Of a stretch of 64,000 nt of DNA, positions 3,301 through 62,300 are shown one piece after another. Below the pieces are notes generated by a model, which was not told where the DNA came from, did no database searches, and saw only the letters and a program-made list of their open reading frames with translations. The stretch covers positions 4,707,338 to 4,771,337 of the forward strand of contig NC_088302.1 of assembly GCF_032854445.1 (NCBI RefSeq), in the 5' to 3' direction. The first letter of the stretch is position 1. Each line of letters begins with the position of its first letter. A program made the position numbers and the translations under genes. Source of the stretch: Liolophura sinensis. Its lineage: Eukaryota; Mollusca; Polyplacophora; Chitonida; Chitonidae.

Positions 3301-6300
3301 TGTTCTGCAGTACCGCGTTTTTGGAAAGTCAGAAGTAATGTACGCCCTCTCGGGATTACCATGCTTCCTGTGAAAAAAAGTTATCTGTAGCACTGTAATG
3401 TATTTCACGTATATAAGGTTGGTATGTCAAAATGCCATTTCAGGAGCACATCAAGACTGTAAACTGACATTTTCGGTGTCAGCACAAGTTTTTCTGGTAA
3501 GACACTTATGAAACTTCACAAAGAACTCTTAAGTGACCCTATAGGGTTGATGAATCAAAGAAAATGTGCATTTGAAATATACAGAATTTAGTTGAAATAA
3601 ACTACTTTGTGTTATTGTAAAAAGTGTAAGAATTGTAGATGTGTTGGTTTTTAGGGGAACAAAAGGAATCCTCGGCTCCTAAAAGTCCTGGCTCCAAAGA
3701 CGGTACTAACACATCACCCAAGCAGAAGGCTGGCATCAAGGTGGACATAGGGGCACGAATACGCAGCGCCATTGGGGAGGTCATCGACCCCACAATAAAG
3801 CTAGAAAAACAAAGGTAAGGCAGAGGCTCGTCATTGTGGTGCATCGTACTTGGTGTACTGGCTGTTCCTGATGATATGGCTAAAAGTATTTGTGCTGAAG
3901 TTTCTGGTTTTAGGTTGGTCAGATGTCTTTAATTCGTTCCATGTTAGCACCACCCAGCACGCCTTGGCTGTTTGACAATATTATACGGCCACAAACCGAC
4001 TGGAATTCCAGGGTGAAATGAAAATGGCATGTGCAGTTCTAATAAATTGTCCTTTATATCACTTCATCTGAGTTAAAAGGTATCTCTCAAAATTCAGTAT
4101 TGAAAGCTTTTGACTTTGAACTTTTGCTATCCCCCTTATAGTATACCCTCAATGACCATAAATGTCTAACTTGCCAGTTTTTCCAGATTTTGAGAGTTAT
4201 ACTGATTTTAGAAAGGTGTTTTGATGTTTACTTGGAACATGGGATGATATTCTAGTGGAAAATGTAAGTTTCAGCACCAAAAATAATATTTTGTGACATT
4301 TATTTACCTCTAAAAATACTTTTTTGTGGGCAAAATTTTTAGGTCATTTAGGGTCTGGTACAGCCTGAGAATTTCCTGTTTATCCATATTTCCATAATCT
4401 GTGAGGTAAACATTTTTCTAAAAAGCCAGTTTTAATCCAAGCTAGCTACTATCCCAATCATTATAGGTCCATGAATTTCCTAGAATGCGCAGATTATTTC
4501 TCTGGCTCAGTTGACTCGTCTTGATTCTCTGTGTGCTCTGTTCCCCTCTCCTACAGCTGGTACCATGGTACTATTGGCCGCTCCGATGCAGAGGCTCTTC
4601 TCAGGGTCTGTAAAGAAGGCAGCTACCTAGTGAGGAATAGTGAGAGCACCAAAACTGACTACTCTCTCTCCATGAAGTAAGGAAAACTTGTATTCTGTAT
4701 GCACAAACTCACTTGTATTATGTCCACACAAACTCACTTGTATTCTGTCTACACAAACTCACTTGTATTCTGTCCACACAAACTCACTTGTATTATGTCT
4801 ACACAAATTGACTACTCATCCCCTATGAAGTAAAGAAAACTTTGTATTCTGTCTATACAAGTCCAGCTGATGCCGGCTTTCTCTCCGGCTGTATGAGGGA
4901 AGGTCTGCTAGCAACCTGTGGATGATCTTGGGTTTCCCCCCAGGCTTTACCCGGTTTCCTCCCACCATAATGCTGGCTGCCAGCGTATAAGCGAAATATT
5001 CTTATAAATACCAATGAAATATATAAATAAATATTTTGTCACACAAACTGACTACTGTCTCTCCATGAAGGAAGGAAAACTTTATATTCTGTCCGCACAA
5101 ACTGACTACTGTCTCTCCATGAAGGAAGGAAAACTTTATATTCTGTCCGCACACACTGAATACTGTCTCTCCATGAAGGAAGGAAAACTTTATACTCTGT
5201 CCGCACAAACTGACTACTGTCTCTCCATGAAGGAAGGAAAACTTTATATTCTGTCCGCACACACTGAATACTGTCTCTCCATGAAGGAAGGAAAACTTTA
5301 TACTCTGTCCGCACGAACTGACTACTGTCTCTCCATGAAGGAAGGAAAACTTTATATTCTGTCCGCACACACTGAATACTGTCTCTCCATGAAGGAAGGA
5401 AAACTTTATACTCTGTCCGCACAAACTGACTACTGTCTCTCCATGAAGGAAGGAAAACTTTATACTCTGTCCGCACAAACTGACTACTGTCTCTCCATGA
5501 AGGAAGGAAAACTTTATACTCTGTCCGCACACACTGACTACTGTCTCTCCATGAAGGAAGGAAAACTTTATACTCTGTCCGCACACACTGAATACTGTCT
5601 CTCCATGAAGGAAGGAAAACTTTATACTCTGTCCGCACACACTGAATACTGTCTCTCCATGAAGGAAGGAAAACTTTATACTCTGTCCGCACACACTGAA
5701 TACTGTCTCTCCATGAAGGAAGGAAAACTTTATATTCTGTCCGCACAAACTGACTACTGTCTCTCCATGAAGGAAGGAAAACTTTATACTCTGTCCGCAC
5801 ACACTGAATACTGTCTCTCCATGAAGGAAGGAAAACTTTATACTCTGTCCGCACACACTGACTACTGTCTCTCCATGAAGGAAGGAAAACTTTATACTCT
5901 GTCCGCACAAACTGACTACTGTCTCTCCATGAAGGAAGGAAAACTTTATACTCTGTCCGCACAAACTGACTACTGTCTCTCCATGAAGGAAGGAAAACTT
6001 TATACTCTGTCCGCACACACTGAATACTGTCTCTCCATGAAGGAAGGAAAACTTTATACTCTGTCCGCACACACTGAATACTGTCTCTCCATGAAGGAAG
6101 GAAAACTTTATACTCTGTCCGCACAAACTGACTACTGTCTCTCCATGAAGGAAGGAAAACTTTATACTCTGTCCGCACAAACTGACTACTCACTATCGGG
6201 GAAGCAAAGAAAAGATTGTATTCCTTCCTTACAAGTGGACTATTCACTCACTCTTCATGAAGTAAAAAAAGCATTCATGCTGAAGGGATGCAGAATCAGT

Positions 6301-7159
6301 GCTGGTTGGCAGGCAGACAGTGGAGATGGGATTTCCTGGGGTAAAGCCTGCTGTTTTGATCAAGCTTCAATAAATGCACCTGTACCGAAAAATTCAGCTC
6401 TACCTAGGCATAGCCTTACCCTGGGTTTTCCTCTTTTTCAGATCAGTCTATCACTGACAATTCTGTATGCCTTAAGGTCATGTTAAACGCTAGTTGTTAT
6501 TGTGTGACAGGTTTATTTCATGATTTCCTGGCTTATTTTATGTGATAAATGTATGGCATTGAACAATACAGTTTAAGCATTTAAACAGAAACCTTTACAA
6601 GGGCTATTCCATGTATAATGTGAATTTTTGGCAAAAAAATTGATATTCAGTAGTCAAATGAAGTTTTCCAAAAATAGCTCAAATTATTGCCTTTTAGTAA
6701 ATCAGATTTGCTCTTGTACTATTTATAGTGTAAAAATGATTCTAAAGTTTAAAAAGTTACAATGCATCATGTGTTTTAAATTTAAGCTACTGTTTTAAAA
6801 AATGAGGTCCATTTTATTTGCACTCATTGATTTTTTATGAGAAATCTCCAGTATCGCCTCTTTAAGTATTTTACAGCACTGGCACATTACTCTTGCGTGG
6901 ACTGTTTTTCATTTAATTGTTTTAAGAAATAGCTCCATTTCTACTAATATCCATTTGTTATTTTGTTTTCAGAAGTTCCCGGGGCTTTATTCACATCAAG
7001 ATATCACGTGACAAGGATTATAAGTTTATTCTTGGAGAAAACAGCCAGCCATTTGAAGCAATCCCAGAAATGATATTTCATTACAGTAGAAACCTTCTCC
7101 CCATCAAAGGAGCCGATCACATGATCTTGCTCCATCCAGTGATAAATGAGCTCTTGTGA
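377..7159 (+). CDS. SHB: SH2 domain adapter of the SHB/SHD/SHE/SHF family, C-terminal part
   Basis: Four exons: 377-1327, 3655-3814, 4557-4676 and 6973-7159 (stop TGA 7157-7159). Phases agree across all junctions and give about 471 codons. The 5' end lies before the window, since the first exon opens in phase 1 after an acceptor at 375-376. Family members are cytoplasmic adapters that bind phosphotyrosine and link receptor tyrosine kinases to downstream signalling. The first exon is polar and disordered and carries four P-W-D motifs (YQDPWD, NYCQPWD, YEAPWD, YEEPWD), spaced like docking tyrosines in the family. The SH2 domain starts at WYHGTIGR at the beginning of exon 3, has the phosphotyrosine-binding arginine in YLVRNSES, and ends with LLPIKGADHMILLHPV, a typical SHB-family ending. 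Introns are 2.3, 0.7 and 2.3 kb, and the last holds a 54-bp array derived from exon 3. The symbol is at family level; I cannot separate SHB from SHD, SHE or SHF. Confidence 0.9.
1328..3654 (+). other. SHB-family intron between exons 1 and 2
   Basis: Donor GTAAGG at 1328 and acceptor TTAG ending 3654. It contains a SINE at about 1955-2187. Otherwise it is A/T-rich sequence with no coding signal I can support on either strand. Confidence 0.75.
1955..2187 (+). mobile_element. tRNA-derived SINE, near full length
   Basis: It has a tRNA-like B-box (gagttcaagtcc), a conserved body (tggcttcctctccggcca, tttcctcccactataatgctgg) and a tail ending in aaacaaataaatg. The same body recurs at least ten times in the window in both orientations. 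The 5' head around ggcataatgacccagg is present here and missing in most other copies, so this is the most complete copy. Confidence 0.8.
4140..4330 (+). repeat. Dispersed repeat, family C (degenerate)
   Basis: The segment around gatgatattctagtggaaaatgtaag followed by tttcagcacc matches, with divergence, the reverse complement of 22050-22195 and of 52340-52480. Ends are uncertain and I see no clear terminal repeats. It lies in the SHB-family intron upstream of the SH2 exon. Confidence 0.45.
4677..4857 (+). repeat. Degenerate precursor copies next to the SH2 donor
   Basis: Directly after the exon 3 donor there are about five short units of roughly 25 bp (acaaactcacttgtattctgtcc) and then one full-length unit at 4802-4857 that still reads atgaagtaaagaaaac, that is, with a GTAAAG in place of the exon's GTAAGG. 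These look like older or intermediate products of the process that made the homogeneous array starting at 5041. Confidence 0.8.
4857..5036 (+). mobile_element. tRNA-derived SINE, 5' truncated
   Basis: Begins at the B-box-like caagtccagctgatgcc, continues through the shared body (ggtttcctcccaccataatgctgg) and ends in atataaataaatattt. It sits exactly between the degenerate array copies and the homogeneous 54-bp array, so it either inserted into the array or marks its boundary. Confidence 0.75.
5041..6195 (+). repeat. 54-bp minisatellite derived from the SH2 exon end and its donor site
   Basis: Twenty-one full 54-bp copies plus a diverging edge copy. The unit equals the end of exon 3 (actgactac..tctctccatgaa) joined to the first intron bases (ggaaaact..tattctgt). 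In the exon the junction is atgaa|gtaagg; in every homogeneous copy it is atgaaggaagg, so the donor GT is gone. The unit is 18 codons long and stop-free in one forward frame (TDYCLSMKEGKLYTLSAH) and two reverse frames, which produces long spurious open frames on both strands. I do not regard these as proteins, because the array is flanked by a working donor (4677) and acceptor (6972). Confidence 0.95.
6196..6972 (+). other. Rest of the SHB-family last intron
   Basis: Decaying edge of the array up to about 6260 (a further tactcactatcggggaag and tattcactcactcttcatgaag echo the unit), then A/T-rich sequence up to the acceptor AG at 6971-6972. No gene seen. Confidence 0.6.
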
Positions 7160-7980
7160 GATACATGGCTGTGGCCAAGTGTAAGGAGCCCTGCTATTGG
7201 CTGTAGTTGGAACTCACTGGATTCTGTGGATAACTTAAATGACATTATAGATCTTGTTGGATGATGTGTTTTGACCAAATAACTTCAGATCTCAGATTTC
7301 ACGTGGACAGCAAGTGATGTATTTTATTAACAGATGTCAAACTGCCTTCTGGCAGTGAGGACATGATCTTTTTTTTTTTTTTTTTTTGGTTGTTGTCCAA
7401 CATCAGCAGGTGTGTTACATTGGAGTGTGCAAAACCATGGATAAGACTGCCTCTGTTATTCTTTGTCAGCTGGTTTGTACGTTGTTGCTGGCCCTCTACA
7501 AATGGATCAAAGTCATTTACTGGTTCTTACAGGTCACTACTGGCCGTTCTTTACAGGATTTATTTATAAACTTGTTATGAACTGGGCTGTCATTTACCTA
7601 AATGTGGCCAGTAACAATTTCCAACCCAGCATAACTTCCATGATTCAAAGCGAGTCATGTTCACTGGACAGCAGATCAAAAACAGTTACACGTATTTACA
7701 TGGCAACAGTTTTAGTACCTTATCCATGTTACCTGCCCAGCTACATGTAAATTCAGACAGTTATACATGTTACCTGGCAGGAAAGGAGGAATAACTCCAG
7801 CCTTCATAGTGCAGAGAAAGTGTACATTATTTCAGTACTGTTTTGTATTTGTGAGGAGGGAAATGTGAAGTTTTATCGTGAACAGTATTGGAGGGTGGAA
7901 ATCAGCTTTACCATCTTCATTCTCACAGATTTCATATGTTTATCATTTGTAGACTTCAGTTTTTATGCTTTTTAAATACC
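7160..7980 (+). other. Probable 3' UTR and flank of the SHB-family gene
   Basis: The region follows the stop codon at 7157-7159. It contains a poly-T run near 7370-7388 and no convincing reading frame. I could not pick a unique polyadenylation signal; the first clear AATAAA in a suitable context is near 9628. Confidence 0.4.
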
Positions 7981-8630
7981 ATAAAGCTGCAGGGTTATGG
8001 TTGATGAAGACGATGTCAGTACCTTACCACAAAGCTTCAGGGTTATGGTTGATGAAGACAATGTCATTACCTTACCACAAAGCTTCAGGGTTATGGTTGA
8101 TGAAGGCGATGCCAGTACCCTACCACAAAGCTGCAGGGTTATGGTTGATGAAGACGATGTCAGTACCTTACCACAAAGCTGCAGGGTTATGGTTGATGAA
8201 GATGATGTCAGTACCTTACCACAAAGCTGCAGGGTTACAGTTGATGAAGGCGATGTCAGTACCTTACCACAAAGCTGCAGGGTTATGGTTGATAAAGACG
8301 ATGTCATTACCGTACCATAAAGCTGCAGGGTTATGGTTGATGAAGACGATGTCAGTACCTTACCACAAAGCTGCAGGGTTACGGTTGATGAAGGCGATGT
8401 CAGTACCTTACCACAAAGCTGCAGGGTTATGGTTGATAAAGACGATGTCAGTACCTTACCATAAAGCTGCAGGGTTATGGTTGATAAAGACGATGTCAGT
8501 ACCTTACCATAAAGCTGCAGGGTTTTATGGTTGATAAAGACGATGTCAGTACCTTACCACAAAGCTGCAGGGTTACGGTTGATGAAGACGATGTCAGTAC
8601 ATTATCATAAATCTGCAGGGTTATGGTTGG
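7981..8630 (+). repeat. 48-bp minisatellite, about 13 copies
   Basis: Unit of 48 bp (acaaagctgcagggttatgg, then ttgatgaagacgatgtcagt, then accttacc). Copies vary at a few sites (gaagac/gaaggc/aaagac, ccac/ccat). Being a multiple of three, it yields open frames in several frames. It lies about 0.8 kb beyond the SHB-family stop codon, possibly inside the 3' UTR, and resembles no exon in the window. Confidence 0.95.
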
Positions 8631-8639
8631 TAATACTTG

Positions 8640-10576
8640 TTCATAATTCTGTCACACAGTTAGCAGTATTATCATGCCTTTTTGTGAACTGTTTGATCCA
8701 TTCAAAATGATTTTGTGATCCCAACATTTGATAGCAAATAGATTGTGAATGTCATTCTGTAGAATTCATCATTTCTGTGTTTTCATCAATCACAGCTTCC
8801 CAAACTTAAGAATAATAATCCAAGTAGGATAAATTAACATTATTTACATCCGTTCCAACAAATGATGCAGGGTATGTATTTTTATGGACTTCGTTCCTTA
8901 CAAGGAAATGTGGACTAAAGGGAGATAATTTCTGGTGCAAGGGGAGACAAGTTTTGAGTTGACACCATGAAAGCGGCAGTTGTACGAGTTTGCCAGTTTT
9001 TAACGCTTTTTCCTCATTTTAACTGAGTATGTGTATGTGGATTGCAGATTGCACTTTGTTGGATTGCAGAATTACAGGTTTAGATATCTTTTTTTTTTTT
9101 GATTCTAATTTTTGTAAGTACAAACATTTCTTTTCCAGTAACGTGCTAGTATGTGAAAATTAATGATTTAAGATTATTCCTGCTGGTTGGCAGACAAGAC
9201 TGTGGTAGTAAGGCTACAGCTTGACATACCCTGACCAGCATTGTGAGCTGGTGAGCCCAGAGTTAGAGAATTTGTATTTCCAAAGTTTTCTGAAAAAGGT
9301 GTAAAACACAATGTGTACAAACAATACACATGTAGACTGTATTGCGTCAGTGTTTGGTACATAATCCTGAATACATGTAGAGGCCTGTGATAACTAAATA
9401 TGACATTATACTGAGATGGTTGTTTAGTTGAGGTCATAATTTGTAATAAATACATAATTAGAAGGCGAGGATATACTTTTGGATTCAGTATGTGGGACTT
9501 GTGATGGTGAGTCCTCCCTGCAGTGTCTTTGTGGTTAATGATTTGTATCCAACACGTGAAGGTTAAACTTTGTCTGACTGTGTAATTAGAACTGCAGTTT
9601 ATATTTGTAATATTTGTGCGACTAATGAATAAAAAATAATACTGGCCACCTAGATATTGGAAGAACTTTAGCAGTGAGATTTTGCTGTGGTACGGCTCCG
9701 AGATGGAGAGATTTCATGTTGCATCCACTCACTTGCCCTACCAGTGAAAATACAAAGAATTAAGTCCAAGAAGAAAGAAATCCTGTTTATGTTATAATTA
9801 TTTTCTGGCTTTGCTGTCAGGGGGGATTGCAATATTTGTCTTTTCATTTTTTTTTTCTTCAAAACATTGTATTAATCCATCTACACACTTGCAGAGATCT
9901 GTTACAGGTTATTCAAAATGTATTGGCAGTTCAGCCAGGTACTAACTGCAGTCTGAACATAAATCCCCTAAATCTCTTTATTACGACACAACTAGTATTG
10001 CCAGATCTGTCTTTACTTAGAATACATTTTTGGACAACTGGTCCAGGTGGTAACAAAGAGTACAGATCTGTACCAGAATGAACTCTCCCTGTTCCATATA
10101 AACATCAATCAAACGCATTATGACAAAGAACAAATCAAGGGAAGAGCAGCAGATATGGCACAGTGTGTCTTCAAAGTCAACAGTGTGTTATTTATAAGTG
10201 TTTTCGAGACTGTTTGTCACATTACATCTGACATGTCCATGATAATCAAAGTATGTGGATATTATCTTTTGTCTTGTAGATTTGTTCAGATTTACTAAGA
10301 TTTTATCCCCCAGGGTTGATGTTCCAAGTCCACCTACTTTGGACCCTATGTAATACAAGTGAAATAAATGTATGGTATGAATGATTCCGTGCTATTTGCA
10401 ATGGTTTTGTTGTATCTGGTGTAAGTAATGAGACAGACAATGGATATGTACATACATGTAAGAAGTTATTTTCAACCATTGGCGCTTTACATTATCACTA
10501 TTCAGCACACAACACAAACCAACGAGGAAAATCCTGAATAAAAGTGATGTATGGCAGCCAGATATAATTAGAAATA
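8640..10576. other. Intergenic or 3' UTR sequence
   Basis: A/T-rich, with short homopolymers and possible AATAAA signals near 9628 and 10362. I see no exon, RNA gene or recognisable element. Confidence 0.4.
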
Positions 10577-10780
10577 TTACCCTAATTCCTCAACTTTTTT
10601 GCATATGGCAGAGCAACTTTCCCTGCAGTTTATGCACATTTTTCATTTGAATTTGGAGACAAAACTACATTGGATGGATTGGCCAATTTCAGGGCTTCAC
10701 AAGAAGTATAATTTTGTCACTCATCACAGAAAATTGCCTTTAGAATAGGCTTGAATAGACACCTTGAAGAAATCCAGTAC
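10577..10780 (-). mobile_element. MITE-like element, family B, reverse orientation
   Basis: Read on the minus strand it starts tactggatttcttcaagg, has the shared core aattggccaatccatccaatg plus tagttttgtctcca, and ends aagttgaggaattagggta. The ends are inverted copies of each other (taccctaattcctcaact). The same element occurs at 15902-16122, 46468-46677 and 56365-56934. Confidence 0.7.
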
Positions 10781-12060: not shown

Positions 12061-12067
12061 ATTAGGT

Positions 12068-14220
12068 TTACAACCCCTCACAGTTTGACTCATTTTTTCT
12101 TTTTTTCTTGTGCATGCTGATGTTTTTCCCCATGAACACATGAACAGATTCAAGAGCCTTCACACCTAAAACTATATTGTCTTTCTTCAAGGAGCTGGCA
12201 AGCTTTGGGATCCACTGATGTACAATTCTGCACACGGAAGTTTGGTGGATACCAAACCTATCACCGAGGTCCTCATCTACGTATCCTTGATTCAATTTCA
12301 TCATGACTAGCAGGAACTCTTCCTTCAGTGGCAGGGAGCGTTTGGGGCCCGGTTTCTTGTAGCATCGCTTAGTCCAGTCATGTTTCCTTGGCTTGGAGTT
12401 GAGAGATATGCACTCCATCTTCTTCTTCAGCATTCTCTCATATGTCCCATCGAAGGCGCTGTAGGTAGGAAATCCTGTATAAAACCTGGTTTTCTTGTCA
12501 TTGTTTTCAATGATGTGCAAACCGAAATACCTTGTAGAGTTTGCTGCTGTCAGCCTGCGAATCTGTAACATCCAAGTACAAATCATATCATAATATTCAA
12601 AACATTGCTGGCGCTTTGTACATTTACATAGGACGATTACTGCAGTACGGGATTAGCGAGAAAATGTCAACAAAAAGCAATCAACACATATCTGAAGTAA
12701 AATGGCCATATCATAAATGTATGTTATGACTAGGAAATAACTCTGCTCACATATTTTGTTCCAGACATTTTGAATAAGATTCTAACCAGGATGATTTACT
12801 ATAAAATGCACAATGTAAATATCGCCTTGTCATGCTGAATAAAAACCCTACTATGTTACCTTTTCATGCAAGATCTCTACTTTGAGTTGCAGAGAAGCTA
12901 TAATATCATCCTTGGACCTTTCTCCAACCACTGTGTCCTGCACCTTGCTATTTCTGTCAGTCTTGCCAGTGTCCTTCCGTTCAATGCTTCTATCAGTCTT
13001 GCCAGTGTCCTGCACCTCACTATTTCTGTCAGTCTTGCCAGTGTCCTTCAGTTCAATGCTTCTATCAGCCTTGCCAGTGTTCTTCATCACAATATTTCTG
13101 TCACTTTTGCCAGTGTCCTTCACCACAATGTTTCTGTCAGCCTTGCCAGTGTCCTTCACCATAATGTTTCTGTCAGTTTTACAAGTGTCCTTCACCTCAG
13201 TGCTTCCATCAGTCTTGCCAGTGACCTTCTCAAAGTTTCTGACACTCTTACTTATGTCCTTGACCTCATTGTTTCTTGCAGTGTTGTCTGTGATCTTCAC
13301 CTCAATGTTTTTGTCAGTCTGTGTGTTTTGGGACTTTATCTTCATCTGTAAGTTAGGCCGTAGCAAACTAACATAGGACATCTTTCTTACTAAGCATGAC
13401 CCAGGCAACTGTCTGGTGGAAAGTTTGTCTTGCCATTTGATATTCTGGACTTGTTGGCGGCAGCTGTCTTCAGAAAATGGCTTGGATGTATTATTGCTGG
13501 TGTTGAATACAGCAGCCCTGTAACATTCAAATGTAAACAATTAATACATCTTATCTGACAGCACAGTATCTTGGCTATTATATCATCAGAACACCCCAAT
13601 TTGGCTGAAATATTTCTGATAGGGCATTAAGCCATAATCATTCACTAATTCATTTATCAGATGGTTAAGCACAAAGCCAATTTAACAATTAAAATATTTC
13701 TAAAATACCTTCATTTATTTATTTTAGTTGTTTGTATGAACACAATATCAGTTAGGTTTATTGATAAAGGAAATCACACAGACGAAGCCCAGGGAAATCC
13801 TCCATTCTTCTCCACCAGGTATCTGACACTATATCCAGTAAGTATCTACCATATGTAATTTAATCATACCAACCCTGACAGCAATTCTGATTCCACTTTT
13901 TTCCTCCTTGTCTTGGGCACTGTTGAGCCTGGTTTGATTGTAGCATAAGGTTTGATGCGCCAACGAGTTTTAACAATGGATGTTGGATATCCCATGTTCA
14001 GGCATGGAACTGGGTGGTACACTGAGGGTTCCTTGTCAACAAAGTGCTCGTCGCAAACCCTAGAATGCTTTTTAGGGACAAAGTCAGCACGATTTATCTT
14101 TGCCATCCATTGTTTACGCATGCTGCTATCAGAGGGGATACGAAAAAATCTGTATCGTTGCCCATTTGCCTTCACATGATTGGAGTTATGTTTGCAACCC
14201 ACCACGCAACAGTTATGCAT
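12068..14220 (-). CDS. THAP-domain protein with transposase-type helix-turn-helix, no nuclease domain
   Basis: Three minus-strand exons: 14220-13874, 13517-12860 and 12562-12068 (stop TAA at 12070-12068). Together they make exactly 500 codons with matching phases (2, then 0). The first donor (AGG|GTTGGT) is weak but is the one that keeps frame. Residues 1-75 form a THAP zinc finger: CCVVGC near the start, W38, and C56-x2-H59 in RVCDEHF. Exon 2 is polar and contains a tandem 12-residue repeat (VKDTGKADRNIV type). Exon 3 has KKTRFYTGFPTYSAF followed by a helix-turn-helix (LPLKEEFLLVMMKLNQGY to CRIVHQWIPKLA), the combination found ahead of the DDE domain in PIF/Harbinger-related proteins. The DDE nuclease is absent: the frame ends about 30 residues later and I see no further exon downstream. 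It may be a domesticated DNA-binding protein or a truncated element relic. The start at 14220 is the first ATG and sits directly before the zinc finger. Confidence 0.75.
12950..13260 (-). repeat. 36-bp coding repeat inside the THAP gene
   Basis: About eight or nine imperfect 36-bp units within exon 2 encode a 12-residue motif of the form D-T-G-K-x-D-R-N-x-x-V-K. The unit length keeps the frame, and variation is mostly substitution, as expected of an expressed low-complexity linker. Confidence 0.8.
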
Positions 14221-14319
14221 CTTCTATCCTACAAACAAGTGAACATAATATAATTGATTTATGTTTTACACCATGCTATAGCCTGGTTCTACCTAAGGCT
14301 TTTGTAAAACATCTTTTGA

Positions 14320-15200: not shown

Positions 15201-15204
15201 TCGC

Positions 15205-16913: not shown

Positions 16914-23868
<6,955 letters not shown>

Positions 23869-38300: not shown

Positions 38301-41300
38301 ATTTTTCTTCATTACAAAAACGGTAAATCTTGCTATAAAACCTCATAAGTAATAAAGTCAAAGAAACCCTGCATACAAGAAATGATTGCCCTGCATGGAG
38401 GCTTAATTTCTAGAGAACATGTTTACTACAGAAAACAAATTGAAGTTTATGTGACTGGTAAATTTTTTAATTGAAAGTCTATTAACTAAAATCATTAAAA
38501 AACATTCACAAAAACTTTAAAACTAAAACCTATAAAACAATTCAACACTCGATCAGAAGGCCCTCTGTAGATGTACACAGACGAAAAGAAATATATAAAA
38601 AAAAAAACCCAAACAAAACATAACTTTCTATCTCTGTATGTTGGAGATCGACGTATGATTGCCATTATACAGGAGCTAAAAACAAAAAAGCTTGACCTGC
38701 CGTCTGAGAATGTGCATTTACACACCATACCATAAATTAGGGAGCGAAAAAAACAAGCCTAACCTTCAATCCATATGAGATAACCCAATATACATCAGCT
38801 AAAAAAAAACAAGCTTAACCTTCCGTCCGAGTATGTGCAATTACACACAATACCTTACACGAGAGAGCTAAACAAAAAAGCTTAGCCTTCAATCAATGAA
38901 CGAGAGCCCATTATGCATGTACAGGAACTAAAAGAAAAAGCTCAACCTGCAATCCATGTATGAGAGCCCATTATACAGGAGCTAAAAAAAAAAAAAAGCT
39001 TAACCGGACACCAACACAGACACTGACACTTTTCTTCCCTCTCTGCAGAAAACTGTGCAGATTATTTCTCTACACCCTATAGTCCTCCAACAATGTTTCA
39101 AAATACTGGTTGTAGGGGCAGTTGAAAAGGTCGAAGAAATAATAGGGTAATATTTTTTTTTTTTATATGTATATAAACTACCAGTTTTAACATTCATGCA
39201 TTTGTCTTAGTATTCAATGTCAGATTCAAATTTCACATGGACAATGGCAGTCAGTTTTACACTTGGCAGAAACTGGATTGCACAGAGAAAAGTCCAGGGT
39301 GGGTACATATATAGGTCAACTTCATGATTTAAAGCCCCAGCTGAACCGTGAGAATTGCATTCAGCCAGCAATTTACATTTTTACATCTAACAAATCAGGA
39401 GATCTGACAGGACAAGGTAATAAATTGAGCTAAGCAGGTAGAGAGCACCATGATGTACTCACAGGGCTGGTGGGCTAGGGTAGGGACAGGGCTGGTCAGT
39501 CACTAAACCATAGGCAAACTTCTCCAACAGTTTGGTGTAAGAGTAATGTCCCCTTCGACTGTCCTGCTTCCTCGGGTCCAGCAGCTTACAGAAAATGTCA
39601 AACAGCTCAGGCTTTAAGGAAGGACCGGGAAACCTGAGGGAAGAAAATGAGGGAAAAGATTATATAATGTAAAGAAAAGAAGCTTTATCTTTACTTTCTC
39701 TGAAACACACAGATCACTTCTATCATATGTTTTGAACTCTATTTACATTCTTTCTAAATATCTGCCACATGTCCAGATGTTATGTTTTGGTGCATATACT
39801 CACTGGGTCTCCAATCCCTTGTCAGTCACATCTCTCAAAATGGCATCCACAAGGTTTCCTTCATTTTCACCCATCTGTTTAGACACTGTACGGTCCAACT
39901 TATCCAATAGCCTTAAATGGTATAAAAAGGGCATATACATTTCAGTTTCCACCAACCTTTTACTAGTTTTCGTAATTTTGTGTTTTTTTCAAACAAAATG
40001 TTTACTATTGAGAGAGAATTAACAGTATACAAGTGCAGCGGCTTTAGACTTTACAAACAGATGCCAAACAATTTTGAAACTTTTCAGATGTGTTCCCCAG
40101 ATTTACCATTATGATTTGAGGAAGACTGTCAAACCCTTGAAAACAAATCAACATATACAGTCACAAAGTTTGCCATGAAGTTTTATCAAGTCCTCTGTCC
40201 ACATTGAGGAAATGGTTGTACAAGGTACTGATGGATATACTCACTCCACCATACTCTCGTTATCTAGCGGTCCCGTCACAGAAATCTTCACCGCTTCCCA
40301 AATAGGTAGCTCTGTTTGGTCCACAATTCTCACCACAGCCTGGTAAAGATCCTTATGTAGTCTATAACACAATGCTAAATACTGTTACAACCCATATACA
40401 AAGCCACAGAAAATACATAGGCAATATTCCCTATATTGCATATATTTTGTTTCCTAACTTGCTTTCTCTTATGCACAAGACTGAGTAAATTGGTGTATTG
40501 TTAAGTTGTATTTGGTGAAAGTATTGTCTTTCTGGTGATCAAGGGTTTCAAAGTACAGGTACCACTTCCACAAATCCAGACTGACTTAGATGTGGTAAAT
40601 CTTAAGCCTAAAGTTGTAATCCTTAAATGACAAATAAATGTGCAGATTTTGCATTTTGTTAGGGCAGTTGTTCTCCTTACCGTGAGCCATTACTTGGTTT
40701 GCTCATCCTCAAGTATAACTGTTTGGGGTACTAGTTCGATGGAGATTAGAGCAGGTGATTGTCTCCTTACCCTGAGCTATTGGGTGGTTTGCTCACTCTC
40801 AAGTATAACTGTTTAAGGTACCAGTTAGATTGAGGTTAGAGCAGGTGATTGTCTCCTTACCGTGAGCCATTGGTTGGTTTGCTCATCCTCAAGTATAACT
40901 GTTTAGGGTACCAGTTCGATTGAGATTAGAGCAGGTGATTGTCTACTTACCGTGAGCCATTGGTTGATTTTTGCTCAGCCTCAAGTATAACTGTTTAGGG
41001 TACTAGTTAGATTGAGCAGGTGATTGTCTCCTTACCGTGAGCCATTGGCTAGTTTGCTCACCCTCAAGTATAACTGTTTAGGGTACTAGTTCGATTGAGA
41101 TTAGAGCAGGTGATTGTCTCCTTACCGTGAGCCATTGGTTGGTTTGCTCAGCCTCAAGTATAACTCTTTAGGGTACTAGTTAGATTGAGATCAGAGCAGG
41201 TGATTGTCTTACCGTGAGCCATTGGTTGGTTTGCTCAGCCTCAAGTATAACTGTTTAGGTTACCAGTTCGATTGAGATTAGAGCAGGTGATTGTCTCCTT

Positions 41301-44300
41301 ACCATGAGCCATTGGTTGGTTTGCTCAGCCTGAAGTATAACTGTTTAGGGTACCAGTTAGATTGAGATCAGAGCAGGTGATTGTCTCCTTACCCTGAGCC
41401 ATTGGTTGGTTTGCTCACCCTCAAGTATAACTGTTTAGGGTACTAGTTAGATTGAGATCAGAGCAGGTGATTGTCTCCTTACCATGAGCCATTGGTTGGT
41501 TTGCTCACCCTCAAGTATAACTGTTTAGGGTACTAGTTAGATTGAGGTTAGAGCAGGTGATTGTCTCCTTACCATGAGCCATTGGTTGGTTTGCTCAGCC
41601 TCAAGTATAACTGTTTAGGGTACTAGTTAGATTGAGATCAGAGCAGGTGATTGTATCCTTACCGTGAGCCATTGGTTGATTTTTGCTCAGCCTCAAGTAT
41701 AACTGTTTAGGGTACTAGTTAGATTGAGCAGGTGATTGTCTCCTTACCGTGAGCCATTGGTTGATTTTTGCTCAGCCTCAAGTATAACTGTTTAGGGTAC
41801 TAGTTAGATTGAGATCAGAGCAGGTGATTGTCTCCTTACCATGAGCCATTGGTTGGTTTGCTCAGCCTCAAGTATAACTGTTTAGGGTACTAGTTAGATT
41901 GAGATCAGAGCAGGTGATTGTCTCCTTACCGTGAGCCACTGCTTGGTTTGCTCATCCTCAAGTATAACTGTTTAGGGTACCAGTTAGATTGAGCAGGTGA
42001 TTGTCTCCTTACCGTGAGCCATTGGTTGGTTTGCTCAGCCTCAAGTATAACTGTTTAGGGTACTAGTTAGATTGAGATCAGAGCAGGTGATTGTCTCCTT
42101 ACCGTGAGCCATTGGTTGGTTTGCTCATCCTCAAGTATAACTGCTTAGGGTACTAGTTAGATTGAGATCAGAGCAGGTGATTGTCTCCTTACCCTGAGCC
42201 ATTGGTTGATTTTTGCTCAGCCTCAAGTATAACTGTTTAGGGTACTAGTTAGATTGAGATCAGAGCAGGTGATTGTCTCCTTACCGTGAGCCATTGGTTG
42301 GTTTGCTCAGTCTCAAGTATAACTGTTTAGGGTACTAGTTAGATTGAGATCAGAGCAGGTGATTGTCTCCTTACCGTGAGCCATTGGTTGGTTTGCTCAG
42401 CCTCAAGTATAACTGTTTAGGGTACTAGTTAGATTGAGATCAGAGCAGGTGATTGTCTCCTTACCGTGAGCCATTGGTTGGTTTGCTCAGCCTCAAGTAT
42501 AACTGTTTAGGGTACCAGTTAGATTGAGATCAGAGCAGGTGATTGTCTCCTTACTGTGAGCCACTGGTTGGTTTGCTCAGCCTCAAGTATAACTGTTTAG
42601 GGTACTAGTTAGATTGAGATCAGAGCAGGTGATTGTCTCCTTACCATGAGCCATTGGTTGGTTTGCTCATCCTCAAGTATAACTGTTTAGGATACCAGTT
42701 AGATTGAGATCAGAGCAGGTGATTGTCTCCTTACCATGAGCCATTGGTTGGTTTGCTCACCCTCAAGTATAACTGTTTAGGGTACCTGTTCGATTGAGAT
42801 CAGAGCAGGTGATTGTCTTACCGTGAGCCATTGGTTGGTTTGCTCAGCCTCAAGTATATCTGTTTAGGGTACTAGTTAGATTGAGATCAGAGCAGGTGAT
42901 TGTCTCCTTACCATGAGCCATTGGTTGATTTTTGCTCAGCCTCAAGTATAGCTGTTTAGGGTACTAGTTAGATTGAGATCAGAGCAGGTGATTGTCTCCT
43001 TACCATGAGCCATTGGTTGGTTTGCTCAGCCTCAAGTATAACTGTTTAGGGTACTAGTTAGATTGAGATCAGAGCAGGTGATTGTCTCCTTACCATGAGC
43101 CATTGGTTGATTTTTGCTCAGCCTCAAGTATAACTGTTTAGGGTACTAGTTAGATTGAGATCAGAGCAGGTGATTGTCTCCTTACCATGAGCCATTGGTT
43201 GGTTTGCTCAGCCTCAAGTATAACTGTTTAGGGTACTAGTTAGATTGAGATCAGAGCAGGTGCTTGTCTCCTTACCCTGAGCCATTGGTTGGTTTGCTCA
43301 GCCTCAAGTATAGCTGTTTAGGGTACTAGTTAGATTGAGATCAGAGCAGGTGATTGTCTCCTTACCGTGAGCCATTGGTTGGTTTGCTCAGCCTCAAGTA
43401 TAACTGTTTAGGGTACCTGTTCAATTGAGATCAGAGCAGGTGATTGTCTTACCGTGAGCCATTGGTTGGTTTGCTCAGCCTCAAGTATAACTGTTTAGGG
43501 TACTAGTTAGATTGAGCAGGTGATTGTCTCCTTACCGTGAGCCATTGGTTGGTTTGCTCATCCTCAAGTATAACTGTTTAGGGTACTAGTTAGATTGAGA
43601 TCAGAGCAGGTGATTGTCTCCTTACCGTGAGCCATTGGTTGGTTTGCTCAGCCTCAAGTATAACTGTTTAGGGTACTAGTTAAATTGAGGTTAGAGCAGG
43701 TGATTGTCTCCTTACCATGAGCCATTGGTTGGTTTGCTCAGCCTCAAGTATAGCTGTTTAGGGTACTAGTTAAATTGACGTTAGAGCAGGTGATTGTCTC
43801 CTTACCGTGAGCCATTGGTTGGTTTGCTCAGCCTCAAGTATAACTGTTTAGGGTACTGGTTAGACCGAGACTGGAGCGGTGTCAGAGTGAGATTGATGTA
43901 CTGTAGTTCCTGGAAACAGAAAATACAACTGAATTACTACTACATATGTGTCAACAGGTGTCACACTGCATGCTTGGGTTGGGTCAAGAAAGTGTCAAGA
44001 AAATCAGCACAACAGTGGAGACCACTGGTAGAAAAAGAGCAAGAGCAAAGGCAAATATTCTTTCTTTAAGTATTTTCAATCTTCAGTGTACTTATCTGGT
44101 GTTAGCAATGTGAAAACGTATGTCAGGTTTTAGTAGTAAATGATTGGGGTTTAAGGCCTCACGGGCAGTGTTCAGTATTTGATATAGTGATGATGAGATA
44201 CAAAAGTGATATAGTAAGTGTACCAAATAGGACAAATGAAGTAGCTCAGAACCCCGAAGACAGACTACCGTACCTTCGAAAAGGGTGGGAATATGAGGCG

Positions 44301-50300: not shown

Positions 50301-53300
50301 TATTTGGATGTTGAACAATGTTACAATAAAGTTGGCTTAATATAACAAAAACACATGAATCACCATCAACAAAGTTAAAACTTAAGATTGTGAATTCAAA
50401 AATTTTTTTAAAAATACACATAGAACTGTATCCGATAGTCTGAACTCAAACCTCTCCTAAACTGAAACTAGTCTGTCCATTTTGGTAAGGAAGTTTTCAA
50501 GTCCTGCTCCAAGTGAGCTTGCTATCCATTCCTTACCCTCTGAGCCCAGATAGACTGGGTCTGACACAAGGGAGAGAGAGAAGGTTGACCCTGCCTCCAA
50601 GAAGCCATCCCCAATGACCTTGACCTGAGCAACAGCCCAGCGTTCCCCATCCTGGAAGGTCACACTACCACTGCTGCGGTCTACGCCAATCCCACTCTGT
50701 AACTGTGGCTGAAATACCGCAAAAGTATCAGGAAAAATTCAATACATTTGCATATTTACACAATCACTGTTTATTTTCCTCTTTACTACTGAGACTGCAG
50801 AAATCTGGGCACTTAATTCGCACCAGGCAGTAGTAAGTTGATGACGAGGTGAAAGGTAACATGGGAATGTACAGGAAAATGAACACTGGATGATAAACTG
50901 AGAAGTACGGCTTGCAATAACCAGAAATTATAGCAGGTAAGACAAAAGAAGTATCTGCAGAGCATATGTAAATTGTAGACGTCAACAAAACCTCCTAGGT
51001 TAACTCTCATATTATTTAGACAATGTTTTCGCCACTGCGTGTGAGTGAGAAAAGAGAGTTGGCGAGAGTAAAAAGGCAAATGCCTGGGCGTCAGCGGTCA
51101 TGAATGCAAGAATACGTGATGATGCATGATATGGTCTCTAACACCTTTACTTTGAGGGATCTGACATTTAGGCCATCATATTTTTTCAAAGCTTCTAATT
51201 GTAACAGATAGTTGTAAACCATTTTAGCAGAGTAATCCATAATTACTACATCAGAAGAAATCTGCTGTTATTTTTCCAAATTTACCACCATTATTGACCT
51301 TATTAAAAAAAAAAACAGAACCTTAAATACCCAAAATAATTGTCTAAATCCAAACTGTTTTGTACCTTGTCATATCTTATGGAGTAGTACACCTGCACAC
51401 TGCCAAAACTCCCAGCATTCCTTGTAACGTTCAGCTGAAGTGTCCTCTGATTGGTCAGTGGGTCAACCAAAACTGTCTGGTGCTCTGTGACCACACCAAA
51501 CACACCGTGCGGGTTGTCGTTGTACCTGAGATGACAGCAAGGCCACACATTTGATATTCTAAATTTAACATTTCTCAATTTTATAAAAAAAACCTGGCAG
51601 TTAGGTATCAAATCTAATCAATGCTATAGGTGTAAACACAACAACAGAATGGTAAAAGTTATAGCATCATCTTGCCTGATCTGATAATGTGCTAAATACA
51701 TGTTTATCATTTCAGGAAGGTCTGAATTTTTCATGAGTGATTCTGCGATGATTTTGAGGAGCAGGAGGGGATAATTTTCATCAACAAATCAACATACATT
51801 TACACTTTAATAGTTTTTTGTATACTATAATTTAATGAGGACTGTGTGTGATATTAAATAATCCCCACATTCGTACCTGACACTGAAGGAGGAGGAGTTG
51901 TGGGCGGGGCTAACCTCTGCCCCTCCCTCCACACGAAGCAGCCTCAGCTGGAAGTTCTCTGTCAGCTCAGGTATGTCGTCAGGAAGTATCTGCAGGATTA
52001 TCTCGCCCGTGCGGACCCCGTTCTCCATGGCCACAGACCCCGACACAGGTAAGATGTCATTGTTCTCAGTAACTGGCCCTCTCACATCCCAGAACACCTG
52101 GTAATGTCAAGTGTACATAATACTGGCATAAAATAGACATTAAAGATTAATCTGGGCAAAATCTCGATATTTTTAAGTTGCTTTCTGACAATCACTAATA
52201 ATCTGAACACAGAAAAAATCCAAAAATAGTCTGTTTGCATGTACGTGCCTAATATGTCTTGTTGCAAAGATAGTTCTTAATGCTCAATGATATAATAAAG
52301 GCATTTGACCCAAATTTCTCCACAACTGACATTTTTGAGGCAAATAAAGATCGTAATAGACTAAATATGATACTGAAGCTTACATTATATTTCCAGTAGG
52401 ATATCATTCTACCTTCTAGACAAACCTTAAAACAGCTTTTGAAAATCAGAAGATCTCAGCAACAATCAGCAACTTATGCTCAAACAATTAGGTAATCTGA
52501 ACATCAGAACTAATGCAGAAACAATTGAGGAAAAACATGTATCCACAAAAAAGTTTTCGCCTCGAAGCTTTTTTTGCTTGTCTCACCATAATATTTCCTA
52601 CAACACCAGTATCCATTCGTCGTAAAATGGGGAAGCGTAAGGTAAACGTGGAACCTGTGGGCTCATCAACAGTTCGAGGAGACTGGGCTATTTGTCCAAA
52701 CAATATGATACCATTTGGGTCTCCATACTTCTGCACCTGTTCATATAAAGGAGATAACTGAGTTTAAAACTGAATAATTTCTTTCTGGCTAAAACTTAGA
52801 GTCTCCAGCTCACATTGAAATAAATCAAGACACCTGTTTGTCTTTAAAAAAGTTATTCTTACTTTATATCTGGCTGTTCTTAACGAGATAAATTAACTGT
52901 GACAGGATAGGGTTCACAGAAAAAGGCCTTCATGTACAGGTTAAATATAGCGGGTAACTATGTCTTACCCAGGCTTGACCATCTTTCCACAAGGTACGAG
53001 AAAATCAAATATACTTGTAACTGAAACTTAAATCTCTACTACTATTCTTTTGAATACAGGTTATGTTGTACATTTAGCAAAGGTTTAGCAAAGATTTATT
53101 CACTTGTGTCTACTGGATATCCGTGACAGAATCTGCTAATATTATCCCCCCAGCCAGCCCTTACAGTGAGAGTGAGTCGGGAGCGGTCAGGATCTGCCTC
53201 TCCGTCTCCAGCACCAGAGGGTGCTCCGGTAACACTGTAGATCTCTATGACAAACTGCTTCTGTATCTCCCAGCCACTGTGAGGTTTGATGTACATTGTT

Positions 53301-56300: not shown

Positions 56301-59300
56301 CAACGTCAGCTCTCAAAGGGACTTCACTCAGTTGTTACAAGGTCAAATCTCGAAACCTGCACATTACTGTAATTCTTCAACAATTTTGGTTGTTTGCAAA
56401 GTGTTTATTCAAGCATATTCGAAAGGCATTATTCTGTGCGGACGGACAAAATTATACTTTTTGTGAAACCCTGAAATTGACCAACCCGACCAATGTAGTT
56501 TTGTCTCCAAAATCCAATTTAAAATGTGTATATATAGTTCTAAAAGTTGCTCTGTCATCTGTCATATATGACCATGTTAAGAAGTTGCTCTGTCATATAT
56601 GACCAGCTTGAGGAGTTGCTCTGTCATATATGACCAGCTTGAGAAGTTGCTCTGTCATATATGACCAGCTTGAGGAGTTGCTCTGTCATATATGACCCGC
56701 TTGAGGAGTTGCTCTGTCATATATGACCAGCTTGAGAAGTTGCTCTGTCATATATGACCAGCTTGAGGAGTTGCTCTGTCATATATGACCAGCTTGAGGA
56801 GTTGCTCTGTCATATATGACCAGCTTGAGGAGTTGCTCTGTCATATATGACCAGCTTGAGAAGTTGCTCTGTCATATATGACCAGGTTGAGAAGTTGCTC
56901 TGTCATATATGACCAGGTTGAGGAAGTAGGGTAACCCTGATTGGAATGTATGAGTTCATCTATAAACTAATATTGGACCCATTATTGGCCTATCGTTTTA
57001 CCTACCTGAATACTGAGTACCCAAATAGTGATGTGAACATCAGATCAAACGCTTACACCTAAACTGACAAGATTTTGTCTTAACCTAATAAACTGGCACC
57101 ATCCATTGGCAAAATTATGAGCCACAGCCCACCATGTGTTTTGATTGACATACCGCAATGGAAACTAACAGACTTGTCATCTGACAGTCAAACTTTGACA
57201 TGTAAGAACCAGCTAATCTTGACATGCATTGATTTTTGTAATCAATTCTGGTTTTGTTTAATCTTGTGATAAAGTCCAATGTTGATACAAGTCTGGAGGA
57301 CTCATGTATGTGGCTACATGTAGCAGTATAAACTTGTATCAGCATGAGATTGTACGCCAGATACCGCTTTATTTCATTTTACACCTGATCTCAATATTTG
57401 CTGGTTTTGGCTTACAGAGGTATTATAGGAAATAGAAAAACATCAGGTCCAAAACATACAAGAAAAGTTCATCATAGACATCTCTAATCCATACTCTTGG
57501 ACTATGGCTCTCATCACAAAACATTGCTTCCTACTGTCACCAAATGAAATATTCTCAAGTACAGAATAAAACACCAATTAAATAGACAAATAACCATAAG
57601 GTAAACTTTTGAAAGCTTTCTTACTCAAGAGGAAATCAACACGTCCACTTAAGTTCATAAACATACATAAATTTGATAACAAGGCTTTTCTGCATTATTG
57701 GAATCGGATGGAAAAATGGACGAATTTATGGATGAAGACTGGAGACTTTGCCCATGGTGGGCAGATCGGGCAACAGTGTTCTTGATTGCGGCATAAACGT
57801 TTAGGCAGCAGAACAGAATCTTGACTTTGTGAGACACTCACCTGAGGCTAGGTAAACTTTTAGGCCGCAGAACAGAATCTTGACCTAGTGAGACACTCAC
57901 CTGAGACAGGGTAAATGTTTAGGCAGCAGAACAAAATCTTGACCTAGTGAGACACTCACCTGAGACAAGGTAAATGTTTAGGCCACAGAACAGAATCTTG
58001 ACCTAGTGAGATACTCACCTGAGACAAGGTAAATGTTTAGGCCACAGAACAGAACCTTGACCTAGTGAGACACTCACCTGAGACAGGGTAAATGTTTAGG
58101 CAGCAGAACAAAATCTTGACATAGTGAGACACTCACCTTAGACAAGGTAAATGTTTAGGCCACAGAACAGAATCTTGACCTAGTGAGACACTCACCTGAG
58201 ACTAGGTAAATGTTTAGGCCACAGAACAAAATCCTGACCTAGTGAGACACTCACCTGAGACAAGGTAAATGTTTAGGCCACAGAACAGAATCTTGACCTA
58301 GTGAGACACTCACCTGAGACAAGGTAAATGTTTAGGCCACAGAACAGAATCTTGACCTAGTGAGACACTCACCTGAGACAGGGTAAACGTATAGGCAGCA
58401 GAACAGAATCTTGACTTTGCGAGACACTCACCTGAGACAGGGTAAACATATAGGCGGCAGAACAGAATCTGGACTTTGTGAGACACTCACCTGAGACAGG
58501 GTAAAGGTTTAGGCCGCAGAACAGAATCTTGACCTAGTGAGACACTCACCTAAGAAAAGGTAAACTTTTAGGCAGCAGAACAGAATCTTGACCTAGTGAG
58601 ACACTCACCTGAGACAGGGTAAAGGTTTAGGCCGCAGAACAGAATCTCGACCTAGTGAGACACTCACCTAAGAAAAGGTAAACCTTTAGGCAGCAGAACA
58701 GAATCTTGACCTAGTGAGACACTCACCTGAGACAAAGTAAATGTTTGGGCCACAGAACAGAATCTTGACCTAGTGAGACACTCACCTGAGACAGGGTAAA
58801 CGTTTAGGCAGCAGAACAGAATCTTGACCTAGTGAGACGCTCACCTGAGACAGGGTAAACTTATAGGCAGCAGAACAGAATCTTGACCTAGTAAGGCACT
58901 CACCTGAGACAGGGTAAACGTATAGGTGGCAGAACAGAATCTTGACCTTGTGAGATACTCACCTGAGACAGGGTAAACTGTTAGGCAGCAGAACAGAATC
59001 TTGACCTAGTGAGACACTCACCTTAGACAAGGTCAACCTTTAGGCAGCAGAACAGAATCCTGACCTAGTGAGACACTCACCTGAGACAGGGTAAACGTAT
59101 AGGCAGCAGAACAGAATCTTGACTTTGCGAGACACTCACCTGAGACAGGGTAAACATATAGGCGGCAGAACAGAATCTGGACCTTGTGAGATACTCACCT
59201 GAGACTGGGTAAAGGTTTAGGCCGCAGAACAGAATCTCGACCTAGTGAGACACTCACCTAAGAAAAGGTAAACCTTTAGGCAGCAGAACAGAATCTTGAC

Positions 59301-62300
59301 CTAGTGAGACACTCACCTGAGACAGGGTAAACGTTTAGGCCACAGAACAAAATCTTGACCTTGTGAGACACTCACCTGAGACAGGGTAAATGTGTAGGCC
59401 ACAGAACAGAATCTTGACCTACTGAGACACTCACCTGAGACAAAGTAAATGTTTAGGCCACAGAACAGAATCTTGACCTAGTGAGACACTCACCTGAGAC
59501 AGGGTAAACGTATAGGTGGCAGAACAGAATCTTGACTTTGTGAGATACTCACCTGAGACTAGGTAAATGTTTAGGCCACAGAACAGAATCTTGGCCTAGT
59601 GAGACACTCACCTGAGACAAGGTCAACCTTTAGGCAGCAGAACAGAATCTTGACCTAGTGAGACACTCACCTGAGACAGGGTAAACGTTTAGGCCACAGA
59701 ACAAAATCTTGACCTAGTGAGACACTCACCTGAGACAGGGTAAACGTTTAGGCCACAGAACAGAATCTTGACCTAGTGAGGCACTCACCTGAGACAAAGT
59801 AAATGTTTAGGCCACAGAACAGAATCTTGACCTAGTGAGACACTCACCTGAGACAGGGTAAACGTTTAGGCAGCAGAACAGAATCTTGACCTAGTAAGAC
59901 ACTCACCTGAGACAGGGTAAACGTATAGGTGGCTTTGTGAGACACTCACCTGAGACAGGGTAAACGTTTAGGCCACAGAACAAAATCTTGACCTAGTGAG
60001 ACACTCACCTGAGACAGGGTAAACGTTTAGGCAGCAGAACAAAATCTTGACCTAGTGAGACACTCATCTGAGACAGGGTAAACGTTTAGGCCACAGAACA
60101 GAATCTTGACCTAGTGAGGCACTCACCTGAGACAAAGTAAATGTTTAGGCCACAGAACAGAATCTTGACCTAGTGAGACACTCACCTGAGACAGGGTAAA
60201 CGTATAGGTGGCAGAACAGAATCTTGACTTTGTGAGATACTCACCCGAGACTAGGTAAATGTTTAGGCCACAGAACAGAGTCTTGACCTAGTGAGACCTG
60301 AGACAAGGTCAACCTTTAGGCCACAGAACAGAATCTTGACCTAGTGAGACACTCACCTGAGACAGGGTAAACGTTTAGGCAGCAGAACAAAATCTTGACC
60401 TAGTGAGACACTCACCTGAGACAAGGTAAATGTTTAGGCCACAGAACAAAATCTTGACCTAGTGAGACACTCACCTGAGACTAGGTAAACTTTTAGGCAG
60501 CAGAACAGAATCTTGACCTAGTGAGACACTCACCTGAGACAGGGTAAACGTTTAGGCCACAGAACAGAATCTTGACCGCCTATATGTTTACCCTGTCCAC
60601 AGAACAGAATCTTGACCTAGTGAGACACTCACCTGAGACAAGGTCAACCTTTAGGCAGTAGAACAGAATCCTGACCTAGTGAGACACTCACCTGAGACAG
60701 GGTAAACGTTTAGGCAGCAGAACAGAATCTTGACCTAGTGAGACTCTCACCTGAGACAGGGTAAACGTTTAGGCAGCAGAACAGAATCTTGACCTAGTGA
60801 AACACTCACCTGAGACAGGGTAAACATTTAGGCAGCAGAACAGAATCTTGACCTAGTGAGACACTCACCTGAGACAGGGTAAACGTTTAGGCAGCAGAAC
60901 AAAATCTTGACATTGCGAGACACTCACCTGAGACAGGGTAAACTGTTAGGCAGCAGAACAGAATCTTGACTTTGTGAGATACTCTCCTGAGACAGGGTAA
61001 ACGTTTAGGCGGCAGAACAGAATCTTGACACCTTGTGAGACACTCACCGGAGACGGAGGTCAGGGTTACCCTGAAAGTTTCTGCTTGCTCTCTCTCTAGA
61101 TCGTCCACAATGGTGATGCTGATGTTGTTAAGAGTGACTCCATCCAGGAAGATGACTTCCATAGGTGTCAGGCTGTAATCCACCCCTGCTGTAGCCGTAA
61201 GGTTCTCTGCCCGGTAACCTACTCTCACCTCACCGTACGACCCTCCAACACGTGTAACGGCCAGTCGGGCTATTCCATCTTCCTCCCTGACTGCAAAACA
61301 GATCATTTGTGTTTCTATAACATCTCAGTTGACAAAGTCATAAACAAGAATAAGCCACACAGTGAGCTTGTTGGTTCACTCAACTAAAGTGTTTGATTAT
61401 TCAACAATTTAAATCATTTGAAAATTGCATGTACAATTTAGCATATATTTAAATTTCTCACCAACAGTCTGTAATGCACTTGAATCAAATAAGAGCGTTC
61501 CTTCAGCATTATCATTCTTGTTGATCACCACTGTCTTGAAGTTGATCGGTCCAACAGCTGGCCTCATGTCAATACTCAGTCCCCCCAAGTCTGTGTAGTT
61601 ATTGTCACTGTAAAACAACATGGATTGCAACAAGTTGTAAACAATGAACAAAATACATTATTACATAAATTCCATCATTATCACTTGACGATTTATTCTT
61701 TATATGCACACCCACCACACACCCTCCAAAACAAATCCACTGATCCAAACTTGGTAAAGTTTTTTTATTGGTTCTTCTTGGTGATGTTTAGGTTTCCCTG
61801 TTCACATTTGTTCAATCTCCATAGTCTTGTCACTTGATCCGACATTGAATAATATGGACGTGGGAAATCATATCCATGAAAAGTTTACCTAAATTGATTG
61901 ATCAAACAACTTTCTACTTAAATTTAAACCTGAACACACATTGTGAAATGACATCTACAATCAAAAGTTTTGATGCCACGATGTTAGTTACCTCGGAGAC
62001 AAAAGCTGTACCCCAGTGATATTGAGGTAGAAATCCTCTGGTCCCTCTGGCACAGAATCCTGCACCACATCCACTCTAACACTCTTACTCCTCTCCCCAT
62101 CCTCAAAGGTCAAGGTTCCTGCACTGGGTACAAAGTCCTGATTGGCCAGAGCTGTTCCAGCAGAGGTCACGTAGGTCACTTCTACTCGCCCTCGGTGACC
62201 ATACTCTCTAACCAGAGGAATAGTTACCTATAAACAAAACAGAAGAGAGGTTTCAACATAAAACCCATTGTTAAAATAATTTATACAAGTACTTATTTCT

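Follow-up and report, generated by a model that had tools for sequence, protein, structure and literature searches.

The window analysed here is a stretch of 64,000 nucleotides from the chiton Liolophura sinensis (contig NC_088302.1, positions 4,707,338 to 4,771,337 of the forward strand); coordinates below are those of the window unless a sampled locus or genome region is named. It carries three minisatellite arrays with units of 54, 90 and 59 bp, all of which were recovered by Tandem Repeats Finder (TRF). Sequence and unit alignments show that each unit consists of the tail of an exon, the donor (5' splice site) and the first intron bases, at 4676 on the forward strand and at 43806 and 61048 on the reverse strand. 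The three arrays derive from 5' splice sites. The original prediction, made from the sequence alone, let all of them begin at the splice site of an exon; the units do span donors and the 90- and 59-bp arrays abut their exons, but the 54-bp array starts at 5042 and not at 4676. The gene names SHB and ADGRV1 are labels of that prediction, and our tests of gene identity concerned the domains only (SH2 and Calx-beta).

The host exon of the 54-bp array (4557–4676, forward strand) encodes the first half of an SH2 domain (Pfam, E 2e-12) and ends at the donor AA|GTAAGG at 4676/4677. Using blastn, the 54-bp unit was aligned across this donor (ATGAA|GTAAGG) to 4652–4713 with 87% identity (E 1e-16), and this boundary segment, comprising the last ~25 exon bases, the donor and the first intron bases, is the founder of the unit. 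Between the exon and the array proper lie a 25-bp sub-array derived from the intronic portion of this segment (4686–4807, found by TRF and matching the 54-bp array), a diverged copy of the boundary segment in which the GT is still there (4788–4853, blastn and sequence) and a piece resembling a short interspersed nuclear element (SINE). The array itself, which spans 5042–6190 on the same strand, has 21.3 copies with a match of 96% (TRF and copy read-out). The next exon (6941–7156, forward strand) holds the second half of the SH2 domain according to Pfam. When the two exons were joined, a complete SH2 domain was obtained (70 bits, profile positions 1–77 of 77), compared to 47 and 15 bits for the separate exons. 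Because the exons on either side of the array make a complete domain, splicing very probably uses the authentic, exon-adjoining donor at 4676, and the array very probably lies within the intron. Judging from the full domain, normal splicing would be undisturbed across the array. The 25-base tail of the SINE-like piece was found in five copies in the window (2099, 4953, 18715, 31030 and 44837), one of which lies between the SH2 exon and the array.

The 59-bp array (57794–61062, reverse strand; ~54 copies) abuts a Calx-beta exon at 61048–61290 on the reverse strand (Pfam, E 2e-17) with the donor CCG|GTGAGT. Its unit contains the exon tail, of which ~15 bases are cleanly repeated, followed by GTGAGT and intron bases. 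The 90-bp array (40672–43881, reverse strand; ~36 copies) abuts position 43806, and its unit comprises ~76 exon bases, the donor GTAAGG and a remainder of intron. Both arrays were delimited by TRF, copy read-out and genome search. The host of the 90-bp array at 43806–43909 (reverse strand) was assigned from its splice sites and open frame: it is preceded by TTTCCAG and ends with the donor TCACG|GTAAGG at 43806/43805. Joined to its upstream neighbour, it matched no Pfam family, and BLASTP yielded no convincing similarity to the Calx-beta exon (E 0.50). Its coding score is unremarkable, as it was equalled or exceeded by 719 of 2060 random open pieces. Exon status is therefore graded as firm for the 54- and 59-bp cases and as probable for the 90-bp case. 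The host genes had been described as unrelated and on opposite strands. The 54-bp case is on the other strand, but the 90- and 59-bp cases share a strand at a distance of 17 kb and may belong to one gene, so that the cases may come from two genes and not three.

The units were searched against the 609.46-Mb genome (632 contigs), with the best candidates scored and very common words skipped. Each unit matched a single genome region, with 22, 36 and 54 matches for the 54-, 90- and 59-bp units, respectively, and the three units are without shared sequence. Each is of private, local origin, in agreement with the earlier view of a repeated process and not of one shared element. The other arrays of the window (51, 48, 40, 52 and 19 bp) matched no trusted exon when aligned to the exons of the 64-kb window, as had also been predicted; script predictions that score below 6 and fall within the 48- and 59-bp arrays were regarded as spurious. 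The 51-bp array stops ~36 bases short of the acceptor of the script-predicted exon 377–1102 and does not enter the exon.

The three arrays differ in the state of the copied donor. Of the 25 copies recovered from the 54-bp array, 21 have GG in place of GT and two retain GT; these donors were read from the printed nonamers, since the script boundary is two bases off. GT was kept in all 34 recovered copies of the 90-bp array and in 50 of 52 of the 59-bp array, mostly as CAG|GTGAGT, and the donor score of 50 of these 52 copies equals or exceeds that of the authentic site. Each of two window introns thus holds 30–50 decoy donors with intact GT. In the loci sampled outside the window, which are described below, 41 of 45 recovered copies retain GT. 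Copies were recovered by similarity around the donor and some were missed (10 of TRF's 18 were found at locus L114), which favours kept donors in all these counts, and copies that are homogenised together are not independent. By consensus, the CAG|GTGAGT of most 59-bp copies is a better donor than the authentic CCG|GTGAGT, so that a single intron contains ~50 strong decoys. On both strands, several frames of the 54-bp array are open (492, 395 and 402 codons; 5008–6486), probably as a by-product of a unit length divisible by three, and partly since a TAA is lost along with the donor.

To avoid the selection bias of the window, exons of three gene families were sampled elsewhere in the genome. 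Sample 1 comprised the 190 listed Pfam exon matches to myosin head (81) and SNF (109), from the best 65 of 213 and 82 of 489 candidates scored, in 119 stretches with 750-nt flanks (261,972 bases). Sample 2 was a random draw of 55 of the 86 listed dynein heavy-chain exon matches with 190-nt flanks (30,986 bases). Splice sites were placed by script from the ends of the Pfam matches, which left one exon of sample 1 without a donor call. A tandem copy found by self-BLAST was counted as spanning a boundary if it covered at least 10 bases on each side. In sample 1, such copies were observed at 8 of 189 donors and 2 of 190 acceptors (P 0.11), in sample 2 at 2 of 55 donors and none of 55 acceptors. 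Combined and checked by hand, the counts are 10 of 243 donors (4%) and 1 of 244 acceptors (binomial P 0.012); before hand correction they were 10 and 2 (P 0.039). The interval of the donor rate is 2.0–7.4%, computed on 244. The process is real and not rare in this chiton, affecting about one in twenty-five sampled exon ends, and donor-spanning arrays are apparently commoner than acceptor-spanning ones.

During hand checking, the row of locus L070 was dropped from both counts (a weak match of 25.5 bits with three stops), the donor of L080, which the array fails to reach, was shifted 38 nt upstream, and that of L103 was shifted to 889. Locus L006, with a 31-bp unit, was added, as it had failed the adjacency filter and is confirmed by TRF. 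Non-adjacent copies at L037 (donor) and L095 (acceptor) are outside the strict 10:1 count. The acceptor hits at L027 and L006 were put down to duplicated alternative exons. Both loci contain duplicated myosin exons 600–660 nt apart (positions 121–152 and 122–170 of the motor profile), which are probably alternative exons. One clear 3'-boundary case is present in the samples, an acceptor-spanning array at L012:1265–1561 (sense) with three copies of a 95–97 bp unit and a match that includes 48 exon bases.

Seven of the ten donor cases are in myosin, one in SNF and two in dynein genes; two of the myosin cases lie close together on contig C12 and are probably from one gene. Three cases among the 31 donors of the window do not differ significantly from the sampled rate of ~4% (P 0.13), and the number of cases in the window is hence unremarkable. 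The 31 donors are a hand count of script exons scoring above 6, without 12860–13318 and 51942–52048 and with the exons at 4557 and 43806 added. Two of the sampled cases have only two copies, L136 (58 bp) and L020 (104 bp), and look like simple local duplications that represent early steps. L159 was considered as a further two-copy case and rejected, as it is built of shorter sub-repeats. At L136 the junction shows 11 extra bases of homology, and no clear pattern of junction homology was seen over the 13 arrays listed.

The original prediction knew of no named class for such arrays, but one exists. In amphioxus, minisatellite-like tandem copies across exon–intron boundaries, with gene-specific units of 10–160 bp, have been termed mirages, and in the passages available they are the same thing (PMC3087553, PMC3902484). 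The cases given there are Adh3, troponin C, the globins BflGb6 and BflGb9 and PGBD5, of which PGBD5 and troponin C are further examples from PMC3902484. The same passages argue that mirages leave splicing undisturbed, and passages citing earlier work report length and somatic instability of the Adh3 mirage. Like mirages, the chiton arrays have tandem units that span the exon–intron boundary (at two firm and one probable window exon and at ten sampled donors), their units are locus-specific according to the genome search with the three window arrays, and many copies carry splice signals (41/45 in the sampled loci, 34/34 and 50/52 in the window), with the exception of the 54-bp array (2/25). Unlike mirages, which belong to cephalochordates and occur at both 5' and 3' boundaries, the chiton arrays are mostly at 5' boundaries, and they reach ~3.3 kb. 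The chiton arrays share the mirage features tested, except for the host group. Amphioxus was considered as the host and rejected: molluscan haemocyanin gave eight matches in the genome, and neither the GFP Pfam model nor the mNeonGreen protein matched it, though these two negatives had no working control and are weak evidence. No mollusc report of boundary-spanning arrays was found in the literature searched, with subscription journals mostly outside its reach, and the mollusc case is new as far as this search extends.

Two other systems show partial likeness. In the Rogers model of intron gain by duplication of an AG/GT proto-splice site, as outlined where it is cited in PMC3087553, the duplication likewise carries splice signals, but the chiton arrays lengthen an existing intron and no new intron was seen. 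The variable internal tandem repeats of human segmental duplications are also minisatellites, some of them at exon–intron boundaries; according to the accessible part of the source (PMC2812944), half of them are coding, many alter transcripts and they are not described there as donor-specific.

We consider it probable, at roughly 0.7, that the chiton arrays are mirage-type minisatellites which arose by ordinary local tandem duplication that happened to span a donor, followed by expansion, and which are tolerated better at donors than at acceptors. A short duplication of 30–140 bp would by chance take in a 5' splice site. The exon and the first, authentic donor would remain intact and the extra copy would fall into the intron, where the pair could grow and be homogenised into an array by slippage or unequal exchange. 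A duplicated donor would lie beyond the exon and could be ignored, whereas a duplicated acceptor would introduce a usable AG ahead of the authentic site and interfere with the branch region. We infer from this that the asymmetry between donors and acceptors reflects tolerance.

Several results weigh against this explanation. With TRF alone, 9 donors and 3 acceptors were spanned, which is not significant (P 0.15); this count includes L095 and L017, the latter with 9 exon bases, and lacks L110, which is in the BLAST count. The predicted excess of donor-spanning over acceptor-spanning units is hence upheld by the BLAST counts of 10 against 1 or 2 and not by TRF alone. When any local direct copy was considered, tandem or not, the 190 exons yielded 10 donors, 5 acceptors and 5 midpoints, the latter serving as control. 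In a uniform-origin test, in which the founding unit of each of 69 arrays (units of at least 25 bp) was placed uniformly in the collapsed locus, 9 donor-spanning arrays were seen compared to 4.4 expected (P 0.025), indicating that chance placement is not the full explanation. For acceptors, 3 were seen against 4.4 expected, which is not a significant depletion.

The donor excess points to the alternative that genuine donors act as mutational hotspots at which tandem duplications arise more often than elsewhere, caused by U1-bound pausing, R-loops or co-transcriptional breaks. The hand-checked ratio of 10 donors to 1 acceptor is also in its favour, as are array 5' edges, which are denser near donors (11 in 24,271 nt from −60 to +40, compared to 18 in 112,036 nt from +100 to +740; P 0.012, with bins grouped after the data were seen). 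For array 3' edges near acceptors, the corresponding numbers of 9 and 27 are not significant (P 0.27). The excess depends on the margins chosen, with donor P values of 0.033, 0.054, 0.038, 0.28 and 0.18 over other margins (0.054 at 10-nt and 0.28 at 20-nt exon margins), and neither sample is significant on its own (P 0.07 and 0.12). An approximately two-fold donor excess over uniform placement is thus suggested rather than established, and of the predicted bias toward donor sites this much can be retained. Array coverage gave a different first impression: tandem arrays cover 4.2% of donor boundaries and 7–8% of positions 40–100 nt away, 1.1% and 3–4%, respectively, at acceptors, which have a longer shadow upstream, and 3,886 of 40,040 deep-intron positions no closer than 60 nt to a sampled exon (9.7%). 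The comparison of 4.2% with 9.7% at first hinted at a depletion at donors. Coverage was not accepted as evidence on where arrays originate, since those in introns are long, while an array can span a donor only if its founding unit lies no further than one unit length from that donor.

The R-loops and U1-bound pausing proposed earlier found no support. GC skew does not differ between donor arrays and other arrays (P 0.53) and is negative in the three window arrays (−0.22, −0.17 and −0.03), for which reason R-loops do not fit. A donor-like motif occurs in 1 of 54 units of other intron arrays compared to 2.6 expected, so arrays are apparently not seeded by the donor motif alone. A donor hotspot is possible, and we hold it to be the distinctly less likely explanation. 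That the copies are kept because their extra donors are functional, tuning splicing as buffers, decoys or alternative sites, is very improbable: the retained GT of the 90- and 59-bp copies and the donor scores of the latter would agree with it, but GT is lost in most 54-bp copies and retention can be achieved by homogenisation alone. Misassembly is common for tandem arrays, but an artefact has next to no probability here, as the copies are diverged, short two-copy cases exist and, arguing from read length, the PacBio HiFi (high-fidelity) reads (mean 8,347 bp, 14x, according to the available part of PMC11068029) exceed the longest array. Equally negligible is the idea that the arrays belong to a single mobile or satellite family targeting donors, for which recurrence alone speaks and against which stand the dissimilar units, each with a single matching region among the best candidates scored.

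Should a few percent of donors carry mirages in a mollusc as well as in amphioxus, the phenomenon may be general among animals and open to genome-wide counting. Natural introns with 30–50 intact donors beside the authentic one provide a direct test of splice-site choice, and mirages could plausibly give rise to new introns and to differences in intron length. A more far-reaching reading, which we regard as speculative and rather unlikely, is that working 5' splice sites are tandem-duplication hotspots in animals as distant as amphioxus and chitons, and that a widespread process continually seeds introns with arrays of intact decoy donors which the spliceosome must ignore and which can serve as raw material for new introns.

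Some further features were observed. In the window, a 64-bp piece of a predicted exon recurs 116 bp downstream with 88% identity (22336–22515), just before the 19-bp array at 22542. Coding remains of DNA transposons, with a THAP domain and HTH_Tnp_4, lie at 12071–14223 on the reverse strand, with a 36-bp tandem repeat at 12933–13320 in an open frame. Outside the window, eight beta-sandwich matches were among the best candidates in a haemocyanin gene region (G000:C8:37880506–37891931), and the haemocyanin unit used for the search matches functional units in molluscan haemocyanins of solved structure.

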